A DNA stretch of 64,000 nucleotides from Pseudarthrobacter sp. BIM B-2242 (lineage in GTDB: Bacteria; Actinomycetota; Actinomycetes; Actinomycetales; Micrococcaceae): the NCBI RefSeq assembly GCF_014764445.1, contig NZ_CP061721.1, forward strand, positions 2,728,001-2,792,000, read 5' to 3'. The notes below the pieces were generated by a model. That model searched no databases, was not told where the DNA came from, and saw nothing but the letters and a program-made list of their open reading frames with translations. Below are positions 2,576 through 28,952 of this stretch, in pieces (position 1 is the first letter of the stretch; each line of letters opens with the position of its first letter). A program made the position numbers and the translations under genes.

Positions 2576-4197
2576 GCTTTCCATCCTTCGTAAAGTTCTG
2601 TGGTCCAGGTCCGTGCGTCGGGAAGTTCCTTCAGCGCAGCAATCTTCTGCCTTTGTTCTTCTACGATCTGCTCGCGTAGCTCGTCTGACGCCATGATCGC
2701 CTTCGTGCGCTCCACGGCTTCCTTGATAAACGCCAGCGGTTGCCTCGGCACCAGCGCCCGGGCGGAAACCAAAGAAGCTTGGGAACCGACATCGGTAGAG
2801 AGGACGGCGACGTCGTGGGCTGTCGCCTCGAACGTCGTCAGGGTGAGTCCCTCATTATCTGAGGAAATAACGAGAAGGTCCGATTCAGCAAGCGTTTCGT
2901 CTACGGAATGCGGTGGCTGGCGCAGTTCAAGGTGATCCGTCAGCCCATATTTCGCGACAAGTTGCGCGGTCTCCTTTTCCAAAGTGCCGGAGCCGTGGAG
3001 GATGAACCGGATGTCCTGGTCCGTGGAGCGCTTCAGCTGCGCTGCGTAGCGCAGAAACAGATACGGGCGCTTCTGCTGGCTGAGACGCCCGACGAAGGAC
3101 ACCGTGAAGGGGCGTCCCGGTTCCTTCTCAACTTTCGCGGCGGCAGAGATTTCGTTCAGCCCGTAGAGCGGAGCGAGTGAAACCTTTGCCTTCGGAACAT
3201 CGCGCTGCAGGACCATATAATCCCTCAGCTGCGGCGAGATGACGTGGTGCATGTCTATTGCATTCGACAGCTTGACCGCTACTTCAACAAATCCGCCGGT
3301 CCGCCACTCGATGATATGTAACGAGTCGACCGTCCTGATCCGAGGATCCATGGCCTTGAACCATGGAAGGCGGTGATACAACCAGCCATTGTGGTGGACA
3401 TGAATGCCTTGAACGGAGAAGTGCGTCAGCAGTGCCAGCAACAGAGCGGACTCTTCTTCGGCGGAAATAGGCAGATTTACCGGCAGGACAAGCGCCCCAT
3501 CCAGTTCAGGCCGAACGATCCACGGGTGGGCTGACTCGCGGTCAGTTAGAACGATGGGCAGAAAGCCGGCTTCGCGGGCCAACGCGATGGTTTCGATGGC
3601 CCATCGCTCTGCACCACCCATCTCAAGCCAGTGCAGCCCAAAGATGATCGCCGGCACCCCTTGCTGAGACGGGCCGAGAGACGGCGTCGTCGATTCCAGA
3701 GGAGCCATACGGTGCGGACGGCGGAAAGGGGTAACGCGCTTTTCGTAGTAGTCAGTAAGTCCTTGGCGCAGCGCGTCGAATGCGATCGGTGCACCAAATC
3801 GGGCAACCCGCAATACTTTGGCTTTCCGGCCAGGGCGGTCGTAAAAGTTTGTTCCGCCCTCTGAGCTTTCTCCACCCAAGTCCAGGACCAAGGGAATGAT
3901 CTGCGAATCGGCTGACACCGGTGCTGGGAGTGTGCTTTTGACGCCCACTGCGCAAACGACGGTACGGTTAGGCTCCCACTCGTGCTGGTGGCACGCGTAT
4001 CCGGTCAGGCGAGGAAACTCGCCGTCCGGTGCGCGGAGGACAATGACCTTGAACTCACGGCCAGGCTGTATCAGCGAGTGATAGTTCAACCCGCCAACGA
4101 GGAGTCCGAGCTCCCTGTCCGAGAGCCGGCCTTCGCCACCGGCGAGGCCGGAGCCGCCGTCGTCGATTGTTTCAAAGAGCTTATGGGCATTGTTCAT
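2572..4197 (-). CDS. GT4 family glycosyltransferase
   Basis: A 541-residue GT-B glycosyltransferase. The roughly 170-residue N-terminal part is not recognised; after it come a FGLHWLEMGGAERW donor-domain start, a VSFVGRLSQQKRPYLFL segment opening the nucleotide-binding half, and the SSDNEGLTLTTFEA motif that carries the E-x7-E-type nucleotide-sugar site. No membrane segment is seen. The reading frame is open to 4323, but the ATG at 4197 follows a GGGGGA ribosome site and leaves a 40-base gap from wzt, whereas longer starts would overlap wzt. The stop overlaps the next gene as ATGA. It likely adds sugars to the polymer exported by Wzm-Wzt. Donor and acceptor are unknown. Confidence 0.85.
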   Translation of the reverse strand: MNNAHKLFETIDDGGSGLAGGEGRLSDRELGLLVGGLNYHSLIQPGREFKVIVLRAPDGEFPRLTGYACHQHEWEPNRTVVCAVGVKSTLPAPVSADSQIIPLVLDLGGESSEGGTNFYDRPGRKAKVLRVARFGAPIAFDALRQGLTDYYEKRVTPFRRPHRMAPLESTTPSLGPSQQGVPAIIFGLHWLEMGGAERWAIETIALAREAGFLPIVLTDRESAHPWIVRPELDGALVLPVNLPISAEEESALLLALLTHFSVQGIHVHHNGWLYHRLPWFKAMDPRIRTVDSLHIIEWRTGGFVEVAVKLSNAIDMHHVISPQLRDYMVLQRDVPKAKVSLAPLYGLNEISAAAKVEKEPGRPFTVSFVGRLSQQKRPYLFLRYAAQLKRSTDQDIRFILHGSGTLEKETAQLVAKYGLTDHLELRQPPHSVDETLAESDLLVISSDNEGLTLTTFEATAHDVAVLSTDVGSQASLVSARALVPRQPLAFIKEAVERTKAIMASDELREQIVEEQRQKIAALKELPDARTWTTELYEGWKA

Positions 4198-4237
4198 CAG
4201 GATCCCCCGTCGCAAATCACGTTCATGTGCTTCTCCA

Positions 4238-4965
4238 TTAGCCTTCTCGCAAGAGGCGGACCGCATCTTCGATGGGGCCATCGGCAATCTTGATGCCCTT
4301 TTGGAGCACCACGCCACGGTCACAGACCTTGCTAACCATGTCCAGATCGTGGCTGACGACTACCAACGTGGTTCCCGTCTCCCGGAGCTCCTGGATCCGT
4401 GCCAGGCACTTCTTCTGGAAAGGCTCATCACCAACCGAGAGGATCTCATCGATCAGGAAGACGTCAGGCTTGGTGTGAACCGCGACAGAGAAGGCCAGGC
4501 GCAGAAACATTCCGGAAGAGTAGAACTTCACTTCGGTGTCGATGAACTTTCCGATTTCGGAGAACTCAACGATCTCATCGAACCTGTCGGCCGTTTCCTG
4601 CTCTGTCATCCCCAGGATCACACCATTGAGGTAGACGTTTTCCCTGCCTGTCAGATCCGGGTGGAAACCCGCTCCGACCTCGATGAGGCCCGCAACTTTT
4701 CCGCGGGTACGGATACTGCCCGTGTCAGAACTCATCACGCCGGAAATGAGCTTCAGCAGCGTTGATTTGCCCGAGCCGTTGAACCCCAGCAAAGCAACGG
4801 ATTCCCCGGAGTCCACCTTGACGTCGACTCCGTCGAGCGCCATAAAGGTTGACGACAGATCACCCCGGCGGCCCTTAAACAGCCATACAACCGTTTCCTT
4901 CAGGGACCGCGTGTGGCGGAGGTTGAACCGTTTTGAAACATTCTCAACGACAATAGCTTCCGGCA

Positions 4966-4966
<1 letters not shown>
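4238..4966 (-). CDS. wzt: ABC-type polysaccharide exporter, ATPase subunit
   Basis: A 242-residue ABC ATPase of the polysaccharide/teichoic-acid export class. The Walker A GFNGSGKST is at residues 61-69, the family-specific signature YSSGMFLR at 149-156 (in place of the usual LSGGQ), and Walker B VFLIDEIL at 169-176. It is the short form without the C-terminal sugar-binding domain of some O-antigen Wzt proteins, and in this resembles mycobacterial Rv3781. The start ATG overlaps the wzm stop by one base (TAATG). It pairs with the permease encoded just upstream to move a lipid-linked glycan across the membrane. Clustering with glf points to a galactofuranose-containing polymer. Confidence 0.93.
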
Positions 4967-7181
<2,215 letters not shown>

Positions 7182-7204
7182 CTAAACGTAAGGACTTTCG
7201 CATC

Positions 7205-10200
7205 ATGCTGCTGCACTGCACGCTCGTTCGGAGCCTGTGCGCGGCCCTTCAGGAACCGCTCGTGGAGCTGACCATCGATGGTCCTGCGGGGGCCTCCGGC
7301 GCCGACCTGCAGGAGTCGCTGGCCGCCAGGTTCGGGACCGGTAAGGTGTCGATTGATGGGCACGAGGTGAGATCACTCACGCTTGGGGAACCTCCGCTGG
7401 TCAACGGTGCCGTTCTCGTCGATACTCCGGTGGTGGCCCGCAGATCCAGGCAGCGAACCCCTGAACTGCCGGCCTCGCTGGGCCTCGCAGTCCATAGCGG
7501 TGCCGGCGCGGGCCTGGTTGTTCCGCTTCGGCGGGGAAGTTACACCATTGGCCGCAGCAATGCCGACATCGTCATCCGCGACGCCGACCTGTCGCGGGCC
7601 CACGCACTCCTGGTGGTCGCGGAGACGGCCATCACGATAGAGGACCTGGACAGTGCCAACGGCACAGAAGTGGACGGCGTGCGCCAGAGGAACGCTGTCA
7701 TCACAACGAGTTCCACCATCCGATGCGGCAACTCAACGATGTCGCTCGTGTTTCTGGAACCCGGAAACCACCTGGACGACGCAGGCACGGATGTCCACGA
7801 GCCCCTGGTCGTTCACCGGCGCGATGACCCCACAAACCGAGCGGCACTCCTGTTGACGGCTGTCCTGCCGGTGATAATCGGCGTTGGTCTTGCGGTGGTG
7901 ACTGGAGTATGGATGTTCCTTGCTTTTACCGCTGTCTCGGCTGTCTCCGTTCTGGTGCAACTGGTCGGCGGACGCCGGCAACGCCGTGACCTCGCTGCGG
8001 CTGTCGGTTCCGCCGTCATGGAAGACCAGAAACGACGACGGCGGGCAGCTCCGCCGCTGTCCGCCCTAACCATTGGCGGTGCCACGGGAATGGACCTTTC
8101 TTCCCGGGCTACAGATAAAGGTATCTGGTTGCGCTTGGGCCAGGGCATTCAGACGGCCAATCTCAAATTCGACCCGCCCTATCCGGGCCGGGCCATCCCA
8201 TCAGGCGGGTTGCTGCCTGTCACGCTTGACCCCGGACAGCTCCTCACCACCATTCGGGGCCCGCGCAATGCTGTTGAGGGTCTGGTGCGTTCACTCATAA
8301 TGCAAATTGCAGCCTACCCACAGGGCCGGGGAACGAGCCTCGTGATCCACGGACCTGTGGACCAGCTGCCCCTCGCTGCCCGTTTCCTGAACGGAGTGAC
8401 TCTTTCCAGCCGTCCCTACAACACCCATGACCAAATCAAGCGCGGCCACAAGTCCTCCTACGGGCACGGGGTGCTGATTCTCCTTAACGGGCAAGAGGAC
8501 ACAGAGGCACTCATGGAGGTTGCCCGTGAACATCGTTGGCAAGTGATCAATTTTCCGGGCGGCGGCGAAGACCAGACACCTGCGGATGTCGATCTCGGCG
8601 TGCGAAGCTCCTGTTTCCGTACAGCCGGGGAAACCCTCATGTTCGTGCCGGATCTGGCCCCCGTTGATGTCTTCACCAGCTTTTGCCGCCGCCGGGTCCG
8701 TGACAAACACACTCTTGGAGAAGCCCTGGATGGCATTCCACTTTCTTGTCGCCTGAATGACTTACTTCCAAGTTCCACCGCCGAGACAACCCGACGATGG
8801 ATGGCGAACAGGAGGCAACCCGGACTGCCCGTTCCGGTCGGGCTGGGTCCTGAGCACCCACAAATGCTGGATCTGCAAACGGATGGGCCGCATCTGCTGG
8901 TGGCCGGCACCACGGGTGCAGGCAAATCCGAACTCCTACGCGGACTTACCATTGCCCTGGCTTTGAGCTACGAGCCGGCGCGAATCAATTTCCTTTTTGT
9001 GGATTTCAAAGGCGGCTCTGGTCTTGGGCCACTGACAGGACTTCCACATTGTGCAGGCATGCTCACCGACCTCAGTAACCACGAACTGGGACGGTACCTG
9101 CAGTCGCTCCGCGCTGAAATCAGATTCAGGGAAGAAGTCCTCGCGGCGGTACAGGCCCCCGACCTTGCGTCCTACAGGACAACTCCCGAGGGCCAATCGC
9201 TACCGCTCCCCCATCTCGTGGTTGTCATCGATGAATTCCGCATGCTCGTCGAAGATGCTCCCGAAGCGCTCCATGAACTCATGAGGATCGCGGCGATTGG
9301 CCGTTCTTTGGGGATTCACCTCATCATGGCAACGCAACGGCCCCAAGGCGCATTAACTCCTGACATCCGTGCCAATGTGACTACAAGCATCGCTTTGCGC
9401 GTCCAGTCCGAGATGGAGTCGATGGACGTTATCAACTCCAAAGCCGCCGCCGGGATAAGAGTGGACACGCCGGGTCGGGCCTACCTGGCGCGTGGAACCG
9501 AAGCGCCGGTCGAATTTCAGGCCAGTTCCCTCACCGCCGGGGCTATTGCGTCAGAACCCCCGGAGCTCTCCATCCACCTGGCCGCGGACTACATAGATGC
9601 CCTCCCCGAGACAGGTGAAAACGAGTCGGTAGGCCTTGCACCGACGCCGACCCTGGCAGCCACGCCGCTGATCGCATCCATGGCCGGGCTGTGGGAATCC
9701 ATGAACGGCGCCCCTGTCCGGAAACCGGTCGCGGACCCACTCCCCTGCATTCTGACCCACCCTTCTGCAATGCCAGACAAATGTTCCGGTCTCCCGGACG
9801 GGTGGAAGATCAGACTCGGTCTGATGGACCTGCCTTGGGAACAGAGGACTGCTCCGCTCGTCTGGGAGCCCGCGGCGCACGGACACCTGGGCTTTGTCGG
9901 CGGACCGCAATCGGGCGTAGCTGACGCGATCGGGCTGGCAGTGGGCGGCCTGGCGACCCACCGGCGGGAATCTCACTTGTACATCCTTGATCCCGACAGC
10001 TCGTTCACGGTGCTGGAATCACACGGCCGGGTGGGTTCCAGGGCCGGGTTGCACGAGCTTCGCCGCGCTGTCCGTATCCTGGAGCGACTCGCACAGGAGC
10101 TGTCGCACCGTCTGGCCGGTCCGGCCACCATTACCACACCGCTCGTACTGGTAATCGCCGGTTGGGGTTCCTGGACATCTGCTTTTAGGTCCGGGCCACT

Positions 10201-21434: not shown

Positions 21435-22754
21435 CTAACCCTTAACGAAGCGCCGCGAGGTGGAAGAAAATACAGAGGATTTAGCTGATCGTTGGGCAGG
21501 TGCACAAACCAAATCAGCTATTGCACGCCGGAGCTTGGACTCGGGGGCCGTTTCGAGCAATAAAGAGCCTCCCAAGAGGGCAGCATCGGCCGCGGAGCTG
21601 TCGGCAGGCAGGAAGGCGCTCAACCGAGGCGACGGGCCGTACCGTTCCCAAGCATCCTTCAGCTGACGTTCGGGCGACCTCCCGACAGCCGATGCCCGGA
21701 CCTTGTTCAGCACCACAACAGGTGAAACGTGGGGCACGGCCAATTCAAGTTCTGCGAGCCCGCGGACCAGCCGCGGAACCCCTACAGGGTCGGCGGCCCC
21801 GACGGCGAAAACGGTGTCCGCCAGTTCCAGGCTCCGCAGGGTGGCCGCGTTCCGGCGCGGTGCCACCGTGTCGAAGCTGAGTTCTTCATCGGCTTCCAGG
21901 CAAAAGCCGGTGTCCACCACAACGACGTCGGCGATCTCCCTGGCGCGTTCCAGCACCAAGGACAGGGCTGCTGCCCGGAGCTCAGTCCATCTGTCAGCCC
22001 GGGTGATTCCCGTAAGCACCCGGAAGGTACCCAGCTTGGTGGCGACAGGAGACGCCACCTTGAGCAAAGCTTCGGCCTCGAGCAATCCCTGGTCCGCGAG
22101 CCTGCAGGCCTGGGCGATGCCGGCGGACTCGTCCAGGAGGCCCAGGACGGCCGCGATGCTGGCCCCGTAACTGTCCGCATCCACCAGCAGGACGGATTTT
22201 CCTTCTGCCGCCAGTTCCCCGGCGATGTTGGCTGCGACGAAGGTGCGGCCAGGCGAGCCGGCGGGTCCCCACACTGCGATGATCCTGCCGGCGCCCGAGG
22301 CCTCCGGCACCCCGGCGGATTCGGCAGCCAGCGGACGCAGAGCTGCACCCGTGTCGCCCAGCGCACTCCCGGACGTGGCGCCCCGGGTGGCGACGGCTGG
22401 CTGTCCCGTCAGCTGGGAAACGGCCTCGGCGATCCTGCCTGCCAAGGCGGCCGATTCGACACCGGTCAGTGCGGACGCCACGCCGATCCCGCGCAGCCTG
22501 GCGGCCTCTTCAGCGTTATCCGTCAGGGCAATGATGGCCACGCCCACTGCCCCGAGCCGGTCAACCAGGGAAGCGGTCAGCCCCTCGGAGCCGTCGGCCA
22601 CCACTGCTGCCCGCGCCAGCCCGCTCTGGCAGGCAGCGAGCAGCTCGGTCAGTTCGGCGCAGCGCCGGACGACCGTGACGGGACCGTGAAGCCGTTCCAG
22701 GCCTCCGACGACGTCTTCCCGCGCCTGGCCGACTGTCACCACGGGGATGCTCAT
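21435..22754 (-). CDS. CpaE-like ParA/MinD-family protein with altered P-loop
   Basis: A 439-residue protein with an N-terminal receiver-like pseudo-domain (about 1-120), a linker, and a ParA/MinD ATPase-like domain from about residue 160. The nucleotide loop reads GPAGSPGRT where KGGVGKT is expected, so both the signature and the P-loop lysines are missing. LLVDADSYGASI and DVVVVDTGF are retained. In Flp/Tad pili CpaE localises the assembly machine. No TadA, TadB, prepilin or prepilin peptidase is present nearby. It overlaps the upstream SAF gene as ATGA, so the pair is one unit. Its role outside pili is not known. Confidence 0.78.
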   Translation of the reverse strand: MSIPVVTVGQAREDVVGGLERLHGPVTVVRRCAELTELLAACQSGLARAAVVADGSEGLTASLVDRLGAVGVAIIALTDNAEEAARLRGIGVASALTGVESAALAGRIAEAVSQLTGQPAVATRGATSGSALGDTGAALRPLAAESAGVPEASGAGRIIAVWGPAGSPGRTFVAANIAGELAAEGKSVLLVDADSYGASIAAVLGLLDESAGIAQACRLADQGLLEAEALLKVASPVATKLGTFRVLTGITRADRWTELRAAALSLVLERAREIADVVVVDTGFCLEADEELSFDTVAPRRNAATLRSLELADTVFAVGAADPVGVPRLVRGLAELELAVPHVSPVVVLNKVRASAVGRSPERQLKDAWERYGPSPRLSAFLPADSSAADAALLGGSLLLETAPESKLRRAIADLVCAPAQRSAKSSVFSSTSRRFVKG

Positions 22755-23395
22755 GAGGTGCCGCCGCCCGGGTTCCAGACCACGGAGATTTTGGCCTGGT
22801 TGGCCTGCGCTCCAAGGATGGCCGGCATTTGGCTGTCCTCAACAAGGACCATCAGCACCGTGTTGCGCGACGAGCCGAGGGCAGTGGATGCGGCAGTAAC
22901 CTGGGCTATTTCAGCTCCGGACAACAGCAGCTTCGGCTCGCTGAATCCGTTCCTGGCATCGGGCGGCGCCACCCAGACATCCACCCGAGTACCCGCTACC
23001 GCCTGAGGGGGAAGGGGTTCGTCAATGGTCAGGGCGACAGGTTTGCGGTCCAAAGCGTCCACCGTGGCGAGGCTTTCCTTGGGCAGCAGCTGGTTCTTGC
23101 CGATTCGCTGGACCGCCACCATGTCCTCAGGCAGGCCCGCCTCCACGGTAACGTAATGCTCCTCAGTTTCACCGAGGCGGACCTTTGCCCTGACCACGCT
23201 GTCCGTGGTCAGTTTCTCTCCCACGGCGATGGAGTCCCGGGCAGCGTATACCTCAGTGGTCTTATCGGCACTGCCCACCAGCGAGATCACCCCCACTACG
23301 GACGCCAGGACCAACAGGACCCCCACCAGCAACCGCGGGTCCTTCCAGGAAGGCGGCTTCAGCCTGGCTCCCGCGGTTCCTGCATCGTGGCTCAT
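22751..23395 (-). CDS. SAF-domain (CpaB/RcpC-like) membrane-anchored protein
   Basis: A 214-residue protein with a short cytoplasmic N-terminus, one membrane helix at about 23-42 (LLVGVLLVLASVVGVISLVG), then an extracytoplasmic SAF domain (YAARDSIAVGEKLTTDSVVRAKVRLGE) like the one in pilus protein CpaB and in flagellar FlgA. A GGGGGAG ribosome site precedes ATG 23395. It is divergent from the BldC-like regulator gene; the 152-base space between them carries the direct repeats. It probably binds peptidoglycan or another glycan near the membrane, but this is a family-level guess. Confidence 0.78.
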   Translation of the reverse strand: MSHDAGTAGARLKPPSWKDPRLLVGVLLVLASVVGVISLVGSADKTTEVYAARDSIAVGEKLTTDSVVRAKVRLGETEEHYVTVEAGLPEDMVAVQRIGKNQLLPKESLATVDALDRKPVALTIDEPLPPQAVAGTRVDVWVAPPDARNGFSEPKLLLSGAEIAQVTAASTALGSSRNTVLMVLVEDSQMPAILGAQANQAKISVVWNPGGGTS

Positions 23396-23471: not shown

Positions 23472-23501
23472 CAAAAGTCAAAAGCCCAAACAACATCAAA
23501 C
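23472..23501. promoter_or_regulatory. CAAA-type direct repeats in the divergent promoter
   Basis: Four CAAA(C) units start at 23472, 23479, 23487 and 23497. The last two are part of the 14-mer AAACAACATCAAAC (23488-23501), which also occurs at 24557-24570 before the LysM gene. The site lies between the SAF-cpaE pair and the small HTH gene. Head-to-tail repeats are the kind of target used by BldC proteins, so autoregulation is plausible but untested. Confidence 0.45.
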
Positions 23502-23547
23502 TGTGGATAACCACACCAGATCACACCTTCAGTGGCAAAATGGTTTT

Positions 23548-23763
23548 ATGCCCAGATTCCTCACCCTCGCCGATGTTGCTGAGCAACTCCAGATCAACTC
23601 GCCGGCAGCTTATGCACTGGTCCGAAGCGGGGAACTCAAGGCGATCCAGGTGGGTGGCCGCGGTCAGTGGCGTGTTGAGGAAAAAATGCTCGAGCAGTAC
23701 ATCGAGGAGCGTTACGCCGAGGCCAGCCGAATGATCCAGGAAGCCAAGGCCAAGCAGGGCTGA
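23548..23763 (+). CDS. BldC-like small helix-turn-helix regulator
   Basis: A 71-residue protein made almost entirely of one MerR/excisionase-type winged helix-turn-helix (FLTLADVAEQLQI...AYALVRSGELKAIQVGGRGQWRV) and a C-terminal helix. Size and layout match the BldC/AlpA group, in which proteins bind DNA as head-to-tail oligomers. The frame is open from 23431, but ATG 23548 puts the domain at the N-terminus as in relatives. No ribosome site is visible; CAAAAT six bases upstream suggests a leaderless or nearly leaderless mRNA. An excisionase role is unlikely because no integrase or attachment site is near. Confidence 0.82.
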   Translation: MPRFLTLADVAEQLQINSPAAYALVRSGELKAIQVGGRGQWRVEEKMLEQYIEERYAEASRMIQEAKAKQG

Positions 23764-23792
23764 CCCGGGACCGCGTTCCAATCGGCCGGGTC
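23762..23792. terminator. Possible terminator between convergent genes
   Basis: GACCCGG (23762-23768) pairs with CCGGGTC (23786-23792) over a 17-base loop; a GT-rich stretch follows on the plus strand. A weak candidate. Confidence 0.3.
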
Positions 23793-23875
23793 CCGCGCGC
23801 GTTGTGTTGTTGTCCGGAGAATCTGCGCACGCGGGTCCAAAAAACTTGATGGGTTGGACACGCGCTGGCCGACGG

Positions 23876-24448
23876 CTACATCCCGCCGACGTGCCATGAC
23901 CGGATTGCGCCCAGCGATCCGAAGGGAATTGTGGCAACCTGCCGGACCTGCGCGGCCCGCCGCGCCTCGCCCGGGGTGACCAGCGCCAGGTCCATAAAAT
24001 CACCGCCCACGCGGTCAATGACGCCGGTGAGCCCGCCTTCCTTCGCCATGTCATGCCGCACCATGACTGCCACCCCGGCCCGATCGCGCGCCAGGCCCCG
24101 CAAGGCATGCGCCAGCCCGATCCGCCGGCGCACCTGCGAAGGCTCCGCAACCGAGAGCCGCCCCAGCCCGGCGTAGCGCGCCACCGCGCCATAAGGGATC
24201 AGCACCTGCTGCAGACCCTCGTCCAGGACCAGCGCGTCTGCTCCGGCATGGCTGAGCCTGCCTTCGAACGTCCGCCCGCCCAGGAGATGTACAGCCACCT
24301 GGCTCCCGAGGCCGGCGCGCAACCTGCCGGCCAGGACAACTGAGGCGGCCTCCACCCTGGCTCGCTCGGAGATCTCGGACTCAACCGCGAGCTTGCCGTC
24401 CTCGGCAAACTGGGCCTCCATGTCAGTGAACAGTGCATCCCAACGCAT
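23876..24448 (-). CDS. Conserved-looking protein of unknown function
   Basis: A 190-residue soluble protein. The first half is helical and acidic (MRWDALFTDMEAQFAED), the second half is built from short strands with VAVHLLGGRTFEGRLSHAGADALVLD, reminiscent of an Sm/KOW-like small barrel repeated later at GVIDRVGGDFMDLAL. No family is recognised with confidence. ATG 24448 is chosen over GTG 24475 because TACGCT stands seven bases upstream with no ribosome site, the arrangement of a leaderless actinobacterial gene. It converges on the HTH gene and is divergent from the LysM gene. Confidence 0.72.
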   Translation of the reverse strand: MRWDALFTDMEAQFAEDGKLAVESEISERARVEAASVVLAGRLRAGLGSQVAVHLLGGRTFEGRLSHAGADALVLDEGLQQVLIPYGAVARYAGLGRLSVAEPSQVRRRIGLAHALRGLARDRAGVAVMVRHDMAKEGGLTGVIDRVGGDFMDLALVTPGEARRAAQVRQVATIPFGSLGAIRSWHVGGM

Positions 24449-24554
24449 GGGCCCAAGCGTAGGGCGAGGCTTCACCGGCGGTCAACGCATCAATCCATTC
24501 CTTCCAGTCTCTGGACAAATCAAGAGCAGCGCAGTCAAACTGAACTCAGAAGGA

Positions 24555-24580
24555 TCAAACAACATCAAACGACATTAAAC
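24555..24580 (+). promoter_or_regulatory. Three 10-bp direct repeats before the LysM gene
   Basis: TCAAAC (24555), TCAAAC (24565) and TTAAAC (24575) are spaced exactly ten bases apart, one helical turn, and end 17 bases before the LysM start codon. Positions 24557-24570 repeat the 14-mer found upstream of the BldC-like gene. A cooperative binding site for that regulator is a reasonable hypothesis. Confidence 0.5.
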
Positions 24581-24597
24581 ATATCGATTGGGACCTC

Positions 24598-25533
24598 ATG
24601 ACCAGGGCTACGACACGCGAGCTTCGCGCTGATGCACTCATGGCACTTTCCATCCTGCTGCTGGGGGCATTTCTTTTCGCATCCGGACTGGGACTGCTGG
24701 ATCGCTGGGAGCTCTCGGCGGCACGAGGGCAGTCACTCAGCGTGGACGACCTGCTGGGAGCTTTCGCCGCGGCAGCCGGGTTGGCGATCGTGGCGTGGTG
24801 GACCTTCGCCGTCATGCTGGCGGTGACAGTTGCCGCCTTGGCACGCTGCGGAAGGCCGCGGGCTGCCGCCCGGGCTGGCAAATATTGTCCGGCTTTTATG
24901 CGTCGCCTCGCCGTGGCGGCGCTTTCAGTGCAGCTCCTCGCAGCTCCGATGGCCCAGGCCGCCGTCCCTCCCACAGGACCTGCCTGGGTGCCAACGCAGG
25001 AAGCTGCGGTGCAGGCCCAGTGGTCCCCCACGGCGGCGCAGCTGGCCGCGAACCCACCGGAAGCGGATGTGCCCGCCGCACCGGTCACGCAACTGCAGGC
25101 CACACCGGAATCGCCCCTCGCCACACAATCCCGGATGGCAGAACCCCGGGCACCACAAACGCCACTTGCAGAAGCGCCGACACCACAACCGCTGCCCACG
25201 GACGACCCGGCAACAGAAACGCCGTCAACTGACGCTCCGCCGGCCGCGGTCCGGCCAGACTGGAGGCCCAGCGCACCCGTACCCGGCCCCGGGCTGCTGG
25301 CACCCCGGCCTGTCCGCGCCGCTCAGGACACAGCGTCGACGGGGAACGCGGTCACTGTGCTGGCAGGCGACACACTGTGGGACATCGCAAAGCGTCATCT
25401 GGGACCAGCTGCTTCCGATGTTGATGTCGCATTGCACTGGCCCCGCTGGTATGAGGCCAACAAGGCCCGGATCGGCGAAAGCCCGCATGTCCTGCTCCCC
25501 GGCCAGATCCTGAATGCTCCTTCCACCCGCTAG
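24598..25533 (+). CDS. LysM-domain membrane protein
   Basis: A 311-residue envelope protein. Hydrophobic segments lie at about 14-33, 55-84 and, after a basic loop, 103-122 (RLAVAALSVQLLAAPMAQA, resembling an internal signal sequence). A Pro/Ala/Thr-rich extracytoplasmic linker spans about 125-250. The C-terminal LysM module (VTVLAGDTLWDIAKRHLG...LLPGQIL) should bind peptidoglycan or chitin-like sugar. It starts at ATG 24598 with a weak GGGA site and is followed after 44 bases by the Rv3235-family gene in the same direction. It probably links membrane to wall; no enzymatic domain is seen. Confidence 0.85.
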   Translation: MTRATTRELRADALMALSILLLGAFLFASGLGLLDRWELSAARGQSLSVDDLLGAFAAAAGLAIVAWWTFAVMLAVTVAALARCGRPRAAARAGKYCPAFMRRLAVAALSVQLLAAPMAQAAVPPTGPAWVPTQEAAVQAQWSPTAAQLAANPPEADVPAAPVTQLQATPESPLATQSRMAEPRAPQTPLAEAPTPQPLPTDDPATETPSTDAPPAAVRPDWRPSAPVPGPGLLAPRPVRAAQDTASTGNAVTVLAGDTLWDIAKRHLGPAASDVDVALHWPRWYEANKARIGESPHVLLPGQILNAPSTR

Positions 25534-25577: not shown

Positions 25578-26054
25578 ATGAACGCAGTCACGCCAATCCG
25601 CCCCGCCCGGGCCGACGGAGGGCCGGCGGCAGCAGTCCCCCCTGTTCCGCTACGGCCCGCCAACACGCCGGGGGCTCCGGGCCTGCCGCTGCGCGCAGCG
25701 GACGAAACTTCGGAAATCCTCGCCATCACGCGCAGTACGGTGCAGGCCGCGATGGAGGTGCTGGCCGGCATCAGGCCGATCCACCAGCTGGCACGACGAC
25801 TGGATCCCCGGTGTCTTGCATTGCTCCAGCACCGTGCAGGGCTGATCCGCCGCGAACAGGCCCGATCCTCGTCGCCTGCCCTGGCCAGGCTGCACCGGAA
25901 CTCAGTGGTGCGCTCGGTCAGGGCATGCGAAGTCTCCCCCGGCATCTATGAGGCCAGCGCAGTGGTTATTGACGATGTCCGGGCACGGGCGGTGGCGGTC
26001 CGGCTGGAACGGGGCAAACAGGTCTGGCGTGTGACGGAATTCGTCGTTGGCTGA
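25578..26054 (+). CDS. Rv3235-family protein
   Basis: A 158-residue soluble protein with a Pro/Ala-rich N-terminus and a compact C-terminal domain (HRNSVVRSVRACEVSPGIYEASAVVIDDVRARAVAVRLERGKQVWRVTEFVVG) typical of the Rv3235 family, which resembles SecB-independent, SecA-neighbouring proteins of unknown role in Actinobacteria. A good site AAGGGGAATCAC precedes ATG. The gene points towards secA and the two share a terminator. Function is unknown; co-location with secA and a LysM protein suggests an envelope or export link. Confidence 0.82.
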   Translation: MNAVTPIRPARADGGPAAAVPPVPLRPANTPGAPGLPLRAADETSEILAITRSTVQAAMEVLAGIRPIHQLARRLDPRCLALLQHRAGLIRREQARSSSPALARLHRNSVVRSVRACEVSPGIYEASAVVIDDVRARAVAVRLERGKQVWRVTEFVVG

Positions 26055-26213: not shown

Positions 26214-28952
26214 TCAGCGGCGCTTCTTTTTCGCCTGACGCTTGGCGGTGTCCTGCGTTGCGGCCTTGGCCGGGTTGCCGGACCGGGACGAGGCGCGGCC
26301 CTCAACCCGGGTCTGGGAAGCGCCGTCTTCGCCGGGTGCCGTGTACTGCAGCTGTGCCGGCTTTTCGGGCGCTTCCAGGCCGGCGGCGTGGATCTGCGGT
26401 TCAACGTGCTCGGTGTGGCCACCGGCGGCATCCGCCACCACAACGTCCTGCGCCGGGGTGACCTCGACCTCCAGGTTGTAGAGGAAGCCGACACTCTCTT
26501 CGCGGATGGCCTCCATCATGGCCTGGAACATGGTGAAACCCTCGCGCTGGTATTCCACCAGCGGGTCACGCTGGGCCATCGCACGCAGGCCGATGCCTTC
26601 CTTGAGGTAGTCCATCTCGTAGAGGTGTTCCTGCCACTTGCGCCCGATGACTGAAAGCACCACGCGGCGTTCCAGTTCCCGCATGCTCTCCGAGCCAATG
26701 GCCTCTTCGCGGGCCTGGTAGACCAGCCGGGCATCAGAGAGCAGCTCCTCCTTGAGCATCTCAACGGTCAGCCGCGACTTGCCGCCGGCCTCCTCGATGA
26801 TCTCCTCCGGGGTGATGCTCACGGGGTAGAGCGTCTTCAGGTTGGTCCACAGCTGCGTGTAGTCCCAGTCGTCACCGTTGCCTTCGGCGGTGGCGGAGTC
26901 GATCAGCGCGGTGATCGTGTCCTCGATGAAGAACTGCACCTTCTCGTGCAGGTCATCGCCTTCCAGGATCCGGCGCCGGTCACCATAGATGGCTTCGCGC
27001 TGGCGGTTCAGGACGTCGTCGTACTTGAGCACGTTCTTCCGCTGCTCTGCGTTGCGGCCTTCCACCTGGCCCTGCGCAGACGCGATGGCCCGCGAAACCA
27101 GCTTTGATTCCAAGGCCACATCGTCCGGGACGGAACTGTTCATCAGCCGCTCGGCGGCGCCGGAGTTGAAGAGCCGCATCAGGTCATCGGTCAGCGAGAG
27201 ATAGAAGCGCGACTCACCCGGGTCGCCCTGGCGGCCGGAGCGGCCGCGGAGCTGGTTGTCGATGCGCCGGGATTCGTGCCGCTCGGTGCCCAGGACGTAG
27301 AGCCCGCCGGTGTTCAGGACTTCCTCGTGCTCGTCCTTGACGGCCTGTTTGGCCGCTTCCAGGGCGGCAGGCCACGCGGCCTCGTACTCTTCGGAATTAG
27401 CTTCCGGATCCAGCCCGCGCCTGGCCAGTTCGGCCACGGCGGTGAACTCGGCATTGCCGCCCAGCATGATGTCCGTGCCGCGGCCTGCCATGTTGGTGGC
27501 CACGGTGACAGCACCCTTGCGGCCGGCCTGGGCCACGATGGCGGCCTCACGCGCGTGGTTCTTGGCGTTCAGGACCTCGTGCCGGATGCCTTCCTTGGCC
27601 AGCAGCCGGGACAGGTATTCGCTCTTCTCCACGCTGGTGGTGCCCACGAGGACGGGCTGGCCCTTTTCGTGGCGTTCGGCAATGTCCTGCACCACGGCGT
27701 CGAACTTCACGGTCTCGTTTTTGTAGACAAGGTCCGGCTGGTCGATGCGCTGCATGTCCCGATTGGTCGGGATGGCCACAACACCGAGCTTGTAGGTGCT
27801 CATGAACTCGGCGGCCTCGGTCTCGGCCGTACCTGTCATGCCTGCCAGCTTGGAGTACATGCGGAAGTAGTTCTGCAGGGTCACCGTGGCCAAGGTCTGG
27901 TTTTCGGCCTTGATCTCCACGGCTTCCTTGGCCTCGATGGCCTGGTGCATGCCCTCGTTGTAGCGCCGGCCGGCCAGGATGCGGCCGGTGTGCTCGTCAA
28001 CGATGAGGACCTCGCCGTCGAGGATGACGTAGTCCTTGTCGCGCTTGAAGAGTTCCTTGGCCTTGATGGCGTTGTTGAGGAAGCCGATCAGCGGGGTGTT
28101 CGCGGACTCATAGAGGTTCTGGATGCCCAGGTAGTCCTCCACCTTTTCGATGCCACTCTCGAGGACGCCGACGGTGCGCTTCTTTTCGTCCGTTTCATAG
28201 TCTTCGCCCAGTTTCAGGCGCTGGACGACCTTCGCGAATTCGCTGTACCAGCGGTTTGTGTCGCCCTGGGCAGGGCCGGAAATGATGAGCGGCGTGCGGG
28301 CTTCGTCAATGAGGATGGAGTCGACCTCATCCACGATCGCGAAATTATGGCCCCGCTGGACCAGCTCGGATTTGTCCCACGCCATGTTGTCGCGCAGGTA
28401 GTCAAAGCCGAATTCGTTGTTGGTGCCGTACGTGATGTCTGCGGCGTACATCTGCCGGCGCACCGAAGGATCCTGATTGGACAGAATGCAGCCGCTGGTC
28501 AGGCCAAGGAACCGGTAAACCCTGCCCATGAGATCTGACTGATATTCGGCGAGGTAGTCGTTCACAGTAATCACGTGCACGCCGTTGCCGGTGAGGGCGT
28601 TGAGGTAGGCCGGAGCAGTGGCGACGAGGGTCTTACCTTCACCGGTCTTCATTTCGGCGATGTTGCCAAGGTGGAGGGCAGCGCCGCCCATCAGCTGGAC
28701 ATCGAAGTGGCGCATCCCGAGCGTCCGTGACGACGCCTCCCGCACGGCAGCAAAAGCCTCCGGGAGAAGGTCATCCAGCTGCTCCCCGTCCTTGTGGCGG
28801 GCCCGGAGCCGGTCTGTCTCCTCACGGAGTTCGGCGTCAGTGAACGTCTGGAACGATTCTTCGAGAGCATTGATGGAGTCGGCATAGTTCCGAAGTTGCC
28901 GCAGGGTTTTTTTGTCACCCGTACGGAGAAGTTTTTCGATAAGTGATGCCAC
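26214..28952 (-). CDS. secA: Preprotein translocase motor ATPase SecA
   Basis: A 912-residue SecA, the motor that pushes unfolded preproteins through SecYEG. It has the Walker [14 protein letters not shown] near residue 100, Walker [17 protein letters not shown], the preprotein cross-linking region, and the second helicase-like fold ([22 protein letters not shown]). The C-terminus ends in a basic [10 protein letters not shown] tail and lacks the zinc-binding cysteines of Escherichia coli SecA, as usual for the actinobacterial housekeeping SecA1. The start is GTG 28952 with GGGAG upstream. It lies 47 bases downstream of ycaQ and may also have its own promoter. Confidence 0.97.

Follow-up and report, generated by a model that had tools for sequence, protein, structure and literature searches.

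What are the short CAAAC-type direct repeats for that stand on either side of a small regulator gene in Pseudarthrobacter sp. BIM B-2242, and which protein reads them? The stretch in question, referred to as the window, comprises 64,000 bp (bases 2728001-2792000 of contig C1, in a 4.78-Mb genome whose nearest named loci belong to the Arthrobacter group), and the gene encodes a 71-residue winged helix-turn-helix (wHTH) protein of the HTH_17 family, here called the regulator. One group of repeats lies between this gene and a divergent gene for an SAF-type protein, the other before a gene for a LysM protein. We consider it probable, at roughly two chances in three (0.66), that the regulator is a dedicated oligomerising repressor of this one locus, acting on LysM-DUF6459, with a second site at the level of the genus.

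The repeats are real. The 14-mer AAACAACATCAAAC is present exactly at 23488-23501 and 24557-24570, as the original prediction had reported, and a third copy with two mismatches is located at 24567-24580. With up to two mismatches allowed, the window contains 3 matches against 0.08 expected, and none of 100 shuffled sequences reaches 3. On the LysM side the second copy is part of an array of three units exactly 10 bp apart (ATCAAAC at 24554-24560 and 24564-24570, ATTAAAC at 24574-24580). The spacing on the SAF side is less regular, with CAAA starts at 23479, 23487 and 23497 and the 10-bp step between the last two units only. A genome-wide scan for the 16-mer TCAAACNACATCAAAC, allowing one mismatch, gives 3 sites, all in the two intergenic regions; one additional place appears at two mismatches, and three mismatches, which is chance level, add 23 further places (27 in total versus 20 for the reversed pattern).

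The features of the locus are given below; the LysM, SAF and SH3 labels are based on weaker matches, and curated cut-offs are exceeded only by HTH_17, ParA/CbiA and DUF6459 (Pfam) and by the excisionase domain (NCBIfam).

21435..22754, minus strand: CpaE/MinD-like protein with a GPAGSPGRT P-loop (Pfam ParA/CbiA above cut-off, TIGR03815 below cut-off), syntenic
22751..23395, minus strand: SAF-type (CpaB/FlgA-like) protein, divergent from the regulator, syntenic (weak FlgA C-terminal match below cut-off, no Pfam match; the SAF name is that of the original prediction)
23478..23501, plus strand: SAF/regulator-side site with the units TCAAAAG, CCAAAC and ATCAAAC, at genus level and weaker
23502..23510, minus strand: DnaA-box-like element TTATCCACA (reading TGTGGATAA on the plus strand), abutting the first CAAA site
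23533..23541, plus strand: putative extended -10 element of the regulator gene, TGGCAAAAT, conserved in the genus
23548..23763, plus strand: gene of the 71-residue wHTH regulator (Pfam HTH_17, E 1.7e-12)
23876..24475, minus strand: SH3-like protein, divergent from LysM, syntenic (weak DUF150_C match below cut-off)
24512..24541, plus strand: putative LysM promoter of the genus pattern (TGGACA at 24512-24517, 18 bp, CAAACT at 24536-24541)
24554..24580, plus strand: candidate LysM-side operator, three ATCAAAC-type units in 10-bp steps, at about +6 to +33 of the putative start
24598..25533, plus strand: LysM protein, the presumed main target, with hydrophobic N-terminal segments (by eye), syntenic (Pfam LysM just below cut-off, E 5e-4; PRK11198 E 1.7e-5, below cut-off)
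25578..26054, plus strand: DUF6459 protein (Pfam PF20060, E 5.9e-28), probably in the same operon as LysM

Unless another sample is given, counts for the genus refer to the best 80 of at least 552 confirmed loci, those named as Arthrobacter group. The protein itself is matched at E <= 1e-5 in 55 of the 59 genomes searched (the own genome and paralogues counted), and 10-bp-spaced pairs (<=2 mismatches) stand downstream of the regulator in all 30 genus loci first examined. Beside the regulator gene the direct repeats number from 2 to 5 units (<=2 mismatches per pair). A pair with at most one mismatch is present between the SH3 and LysM genes in 71 of the 80 loci, and weaker repeats are seen there by eye in the remaining 9; between SAF and the regulator, where the repeats are often degenerate, the figure is 30 of the 79 loci with SAF. 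Elsewhere in these loci only 3 matches occur in 800,542 bases, 2 of them in a single locus (L188), just upstream of the regulator gene on a contig too short to include SAF. The distances between [TG]CAAA units, taken over the 700-bp stretch that includes this region, are 10 (110 pairs), 20 (88) and 30 bp (49), with 35 pairs in total for all other distances up to 35 and 2 on the reverse strand.

In whole genomes of the genus, CATCAAACNNCATCAAAC (<=1 mismatch) gives 66 matches in 46 of 61 genomes, versus 2 for the reversed pattern, and the other 15 are without a match. Sixty-four of these 66 are at this locus, a few of them at the SAF/regulator site (45 + 2 were placed by tblastn on fetched loci and 17 by coordinates within about 1 kb of the regulator), and the remaining 2 (genomes G014 and G080) lie elsewhere, both in the same long open frame. 

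Synteny of the block CpaE-SAF-regulator-SH3-LysM-DUF6459 extends, though with losses, to other families of the order and the class, and a profile search finds the regulator in 78 of the 148 genomes of a class sample. Fifty-eight such loci were used (20 of the same order and 38 of the same class), 18 from the first genome search and 40 from the 78 profile matches, the latter chosen before any array scan; the array counts exclude those matches in L208 that fall inside CpaE (below position 7000). The pair [TG]CAAAC-N4-[TG]CAAAC (<=1 mismatch) is present downstream of the regulator, on the LysM strand, in 38 of the 58. Where SH3 and LysM are both detected (37 loci), it lies between them in 31 and is missing in 6; in the other 7 pair-positive loci SH3 or LysM was undetected, in some owing to contig ends. 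The array consensus is [TG]CAAACNNNN, and in many GC-rich loci the unit is GCAAAC, e.g. GCAAACGCAAGCAAAC. One locus (L211) shows the regulator, then the array, then DUF6459, with SH3, LysM, SAF and CpaE not found. In another (L078, genome G050) the regulator gene is inverted with respect to the usual order, and the array is still located before LysM, on the LysM strand. In these families the site is seen on the LysM/DUF6459 side only. For the LysM side, the expectation of the original prediction that the repeats recur in relatives is borne out, and within the genus they are nearly confined to the locus; the wider regulon that it proposed, including the regulator itself and SAF-CpaE, stands only in part, as the SAF/regulator site is weaker and restricted to the Arthrobacter group. 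Chance or low-complexity repeats, an explanation that short, A-rich units would invite, are rejected by the shuffle, genome-wide, reversed-pattern and spacing controls, and with the conservation at one place across families their probability is practically negligible.

The arrays might be bound by another protein, e.g. the HTH_17 paralogue at C1:3389697, with the regulator having other targets. Many of the genomes searched do contain several small HTH_17-like matches each. However, the DUF6459 loci of genomes scored as lacking the regulator carry the pair in 0 of 20 cases, although 15 of the 20 genomes do encode a second HTH_17 paralogue, so the presence of a paralogue does not account for the arrays, and we regard a different binder as rather improbable. 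The 20 negatives comprise 16 of the 70 genomes without a match in the class profile search and all 4 without a match in the first search; among them are L235 and L237, in which the regulator is diverged (34-43%), and L250-L253, where recognisable neighbours are scarce or absent. L234 is the most telling case, as CpaE, SAF, SH3, LysM and DUF6459 are present there and the regulator is not found.

With respect to transcription, the pattern [TC]T[GA]GACA-N18-CANA[ACT]T precedes the array in 55 of the 80 genus loci and occurs nowhere else on either strand of 800 kb. The distance between its -10 element and the first unit is 13 bp in 29 of the 55 loci, 3 in 18, 12 in 3, 2 in 2, 22 in 2 and 23 in 1. 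Judged from this pattern, the LysM start may lie near 24548, from which the position of the array in the list is counted. In the other families, TTGA[CA] is found at -30 relative to the first unit in 11 of 38 loci and TANMCWA at -7 in 10 of 38, which puts the array right behind a -10-like element. An array that overlaps or just follows a promoter-like pair is in a repressor-like position, as far as promoters can be read from sequence. Neither the promoter-like pair overlapped by the second array nor the DnaA-box-like element by the first site had been noticed in the original prediction.

In the putative promoter of the regulator gene, TGGCAAAAT lies six bases before the ATG, and each of its positions is kept at 91-100% in 78 distinct genus sequences. 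This points to a regulator mRNA that is leaderless, probably beginning at the ATG, and to a protein start that gives 71 residues. Database versions of the regulator are often longer (many rows of 86-117 aa).

These positions bear on the sign of the regulation. The same protein could bind the arrays and activate LysM (and SAF or itself), for instance by DNA bending of the MerR type. The wHTH is of the MerR kind, and the SAF/regulator-side units are upstream of the putative regulator promoter, a frequent position for an activator, but the LysM-side array is at or downstream of the putative start, which is unusual for one, and the putative promoter spacing is 17-18 bp and not the 19-20 bp given for MerR in the available text of PMC5859096. 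Activation is considered unlikely on these grounds, though worth keeping in mind. An RNA leader element, i.e. a repeat read in the 5' untranslated region, would agree with the location of most of the array inside the putative leader. Its spacing is, however, locked to multiples of about one DNA turn, and in the other families the array follows directly on the -10-like element and lies in part at the start site or upstream of it, which makes a role in the RNA very improbable.

The regulator scores 47.9 bits with PF12728 (HTH_17, cut-off 27) and 34.3 bits with TIGR01764 (cut-off 28.8), as an excisionase-type wHTH. In the structure model (mean predicted local distance difference test score 89.6) the wHTH is followed by one long C-terminal helix (residues 45-70); it is a single small wHTH of 71 residues, with neither a coiled-coil dimerisation domain nor an effector domain. 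The predicted fold matches the BldC-DNA complexes 6ama and 6amk and the Pukovnik Xis structure 4j2n (root-mean-square deviation 1.2 over 51 for 6amk_B). A PDB sequence search with the single protein gave no match, and a profile search of the PDB returned Pukovnik Xis as a weak match (E 0.005), along with one row that looks like chance. The regulator is thus BldC/Xis-like in its predicted fold and probably not the BldC orthologue itself: orthology is not supported, with 20-22% of residues identical to those of BldC chains when the structures are aligned and another HTH_17-like protein (L082) encoded in the genome of the window (similar matches of ~40% occur in most genus genomes), nor is the operator of the AATTXXXX(C) form. 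The BldC-like label of the original prediction holds for the small wHTH fold, and probably not in the sense of orthology.

BldC of Streptomyces is described as a 68-residue single wHTH with no coiled coil or effector domain, binding direct repeats of variable number cooperatively and head to tail; it is pleiotropic, with AATTXXXX(C) sites whose exact consensus is said not to be critical (PMC5859096, available text). The regulator resembles it as a single small wHTH whose model superposes on 6ama/6amk, and conserved direct repeats of variable number stand beside its gene, to which it may bind in an analogous way. It differs in its putative units, [TG]CAAAC-N4 at essentially one genus locus instead of AATTXXXX(C) at pleiotropic sites, and in the long last helix, which could in principle self-associate. 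With an offset of 7 (the start of the structurally aligned ranges and not a residue-by-residue register), the BldC interface residues Phe21, Val23, Trp31 and Leu11 would correspond to Leu14, Ile16, Leu24 and Phe4, and Ile40, Thr42, Leu43 and Gly44 to Ile33, Val35, Gly36 and Gly37. These positions are mostly hydrophobic and conserved, but Leu43 appears to be replaced by glycine.

A second comparison is with Apl of phage 186, which represses two promoters by way of the seven recognition sequences arrayed in the DNA that separates them; in the available text of PMC7498355 and PMC11963761, wHTH proteins of the Apl/excisionase type bind direct repeats about one helical turn apart cooperatively, and RdfS, Xis and BldC share the wHTH fold. 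Both the spacing of the repeats and the wHTH fold of the regulator agree with this type, whereas the regulator belongs to a chromosomal locus kept in many families. Its recognised neighbours in the genus and in other families are CpaE, SAF, SH3, LysM, DUF6459 and SecA, and no recombinase was noticed by eye near it in the window, where no recombinase profile search was run. BldO, mentioned as a dedicated repressor of whiB in PMC5859096 (available text), is likened by description only, as a repressor devoted to one target. Among the open-access papers listed, none was found to deal with this protein, as judged by titles and abstract starts.

In one locus (L063, genome G029, 3408-8990) the regulator gene is interrupted after about codon 39 by an insert of ~5.4 kb. 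The insert contains two long frames of 836 and 367 aa, tyrosine recombinase-like by eye (no family search), together with a shorter one. A full-length regulator homologue, 59-63% identical, stands close within its edge, as if a replacement were supplied, and the LysM-side array is retained. A second homologue (G000:C2:226614-226793, L083), 48-54% identical, is located on a 418-kb second contig, and extra copies, 39-50% identical, are present in many genus genomes.

In the mechanism that we favour, monomers of the regulator would bind CAAAC units one helical turn apart and align head to tail, by analogy with BldC, Xis and Apl. The LysM-side array would extend from the -10 element or the start site to about +33, and the bound oligomer would block RNA polymerase, leading to repression of LysM-DUF6459 and perhaps also to an effect on the divergent SH3 gene. 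The second, weaker SAF/regulator site of the Arthrobacter group would add autoregulation and possibly control of SAF-CpaE. A dedicated repressor with a second site explains the 10-bp period, the near-confinement in the genus, how deeply the repeats are conserved, why they go with the regulator gene and why they overlap the promoter-like pair. These features are observed here; binding, oligomerisation, the start sites and the sign of the effect are inferred.

Several points weigh against this dedicated repressor. Kinship inflates all counts, and the genome-wide near-confinement covers the genus. Of the 58 loci from other families that carry the regulator, 20 show no pair (<=1 mismatch), and in 6 of these 20 SH3 and LysM were both detected. 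The LysM promoter pattern is missing in 25 of the 80 genus loci, the promoter patterns were written after the sequences had been seen, and the start sites were derived from sequence. L234 is the sole negative among the 20 that keeps CpaE, SAF, SH3, LysM and DUF6459, and its LysM leader retains two TAAAC elements 11 bp apart. On the protein side, BldC Arg30, which reads an operator guanine, corresponds to Ala23, and Leu43 to Gly36, if the N-terminal register is right. The locus nevertheless provides a handle on a poorly characterised syntenic block (CpaE-SAF, regulator, SH3, LysM and DUF6459, next to secA) in many families of the class, and a clean natural system for repeat reading by an oligomerising wHTH, with one regulator, essentially one operator locus in the genus and many variants.

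The DnaA-box-like element is the other conserved component of the SAF/regulator region. Upstream of the regulator ATG, between -60 and -30, TGTGGATAA is found in 72 of the 78 distinct genus sequences, and in 78/78 with at most one mismatch. TTATCCACA also makes up 7 of the 8 boxes clustered at C1:18.4-19.5 kb, presumably oriC. According to the available text of PMC4285127, TTGTCCACA (M. tuberculosis, S. coelicolor) and TTATCCACA (E. coli and others) are high-affinity DnaA boxes, and that of PMC8203912 describes DnaA as activating or repressing genes beyond replication. The 9-mer of the locus matches such high-affinity boxes, and DnaA may bind here as a transcription factor.

In 57 loci of other families, scanned with TTRTCCACA (300 bp upstream being used where SAF was not found, and L078, whose regulator gene is inverted, being excluded from the DnaA counts), boxes with at most one mismatch number 45 in 16.2 kb of the SAF/regulator regions (38 of 57 loci), 9 in 14.4 kb between SH3 and LysM and 37 in the remaining 434.6 kb; the respective numbers of strict boxes are 20, 2 and 2. 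The remaining sequence is mostly coding, so that the fold enrichment is overstated with respect to ordinary intergenic DNA, and the SH3-LysM region is the fairer control. In the 51 loci with SAF that were used for the shuffle test, exact TTRTCCACA occurs 17 times in 14.4 kb of SAF/regulator regions (mean 0.05 and maximum 2 in 40 shuffles), and YYVTCCACA 43 times, in 35 loci (mean 1.6 and maximum 5 in 40 dinucleotide shuffles). The reversed 9-mer is found once against a shuffle mean of 1.0, and the reversed 6-mer slightly exceeds the shuffles (9 versus a mean of 3.7 and a maximum of 8), so the shuffles understate chance a little. No box at this one-mismatch threshold is present in the SAF/regulator region of 19 of the 57 loci. 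Both position and strand vary in these families (~50 to 350 bp from the regulator match), and boxes near SAF are also seen where the regulator is missing (L234 at 5606, L242 at 6134); the boxes may therefore belong to SAF-CpaE and not to the regulator.

As a tentative and speculative extension, a class-wide circuit could couple chromosome replication to the cell envelope, with the DnaA box setting the output of CpaE and the regulator, and the regulator gating LysM-DUF6459 beside secA. Were this the case, the replication status would reach a peptidoglycan-binding protein via one small repressor; if the boxes are functional, the initiation of replication and the wall-associated genes of actinobacteria would be connected in a way open to experiment. 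TCCACA cores are also found within 250 bp after the SH3 start in 16 of 48 other-family regions (16 in total; shuffle mean 5.6, maximum 12), fewer than in the SAF/regulator regions. The window contains six exact TTRTCCACA (at ~726, 7120, 14303, 23502, 30449 and 32170) versus 91 in the whole genome, i.e. at a density above average.

Downstream of DUF6459, the gene at 26214-28952 on the minus strand is one that we take, from its sequence, to encode SecA. A link of the block to Tad pili was considered and found uninformative, PF00437 ATPases being present in 20/20 block-bearing genomes but also in 14/14 controls. In the CpaE/MinD-like protein, a WGPxGAPGR[TS]-like P-loop is observed in 49 of the 50 loci in which this motif could be located (the window and other families), with an arginine at what is presumably the position of the Walker A lysine.
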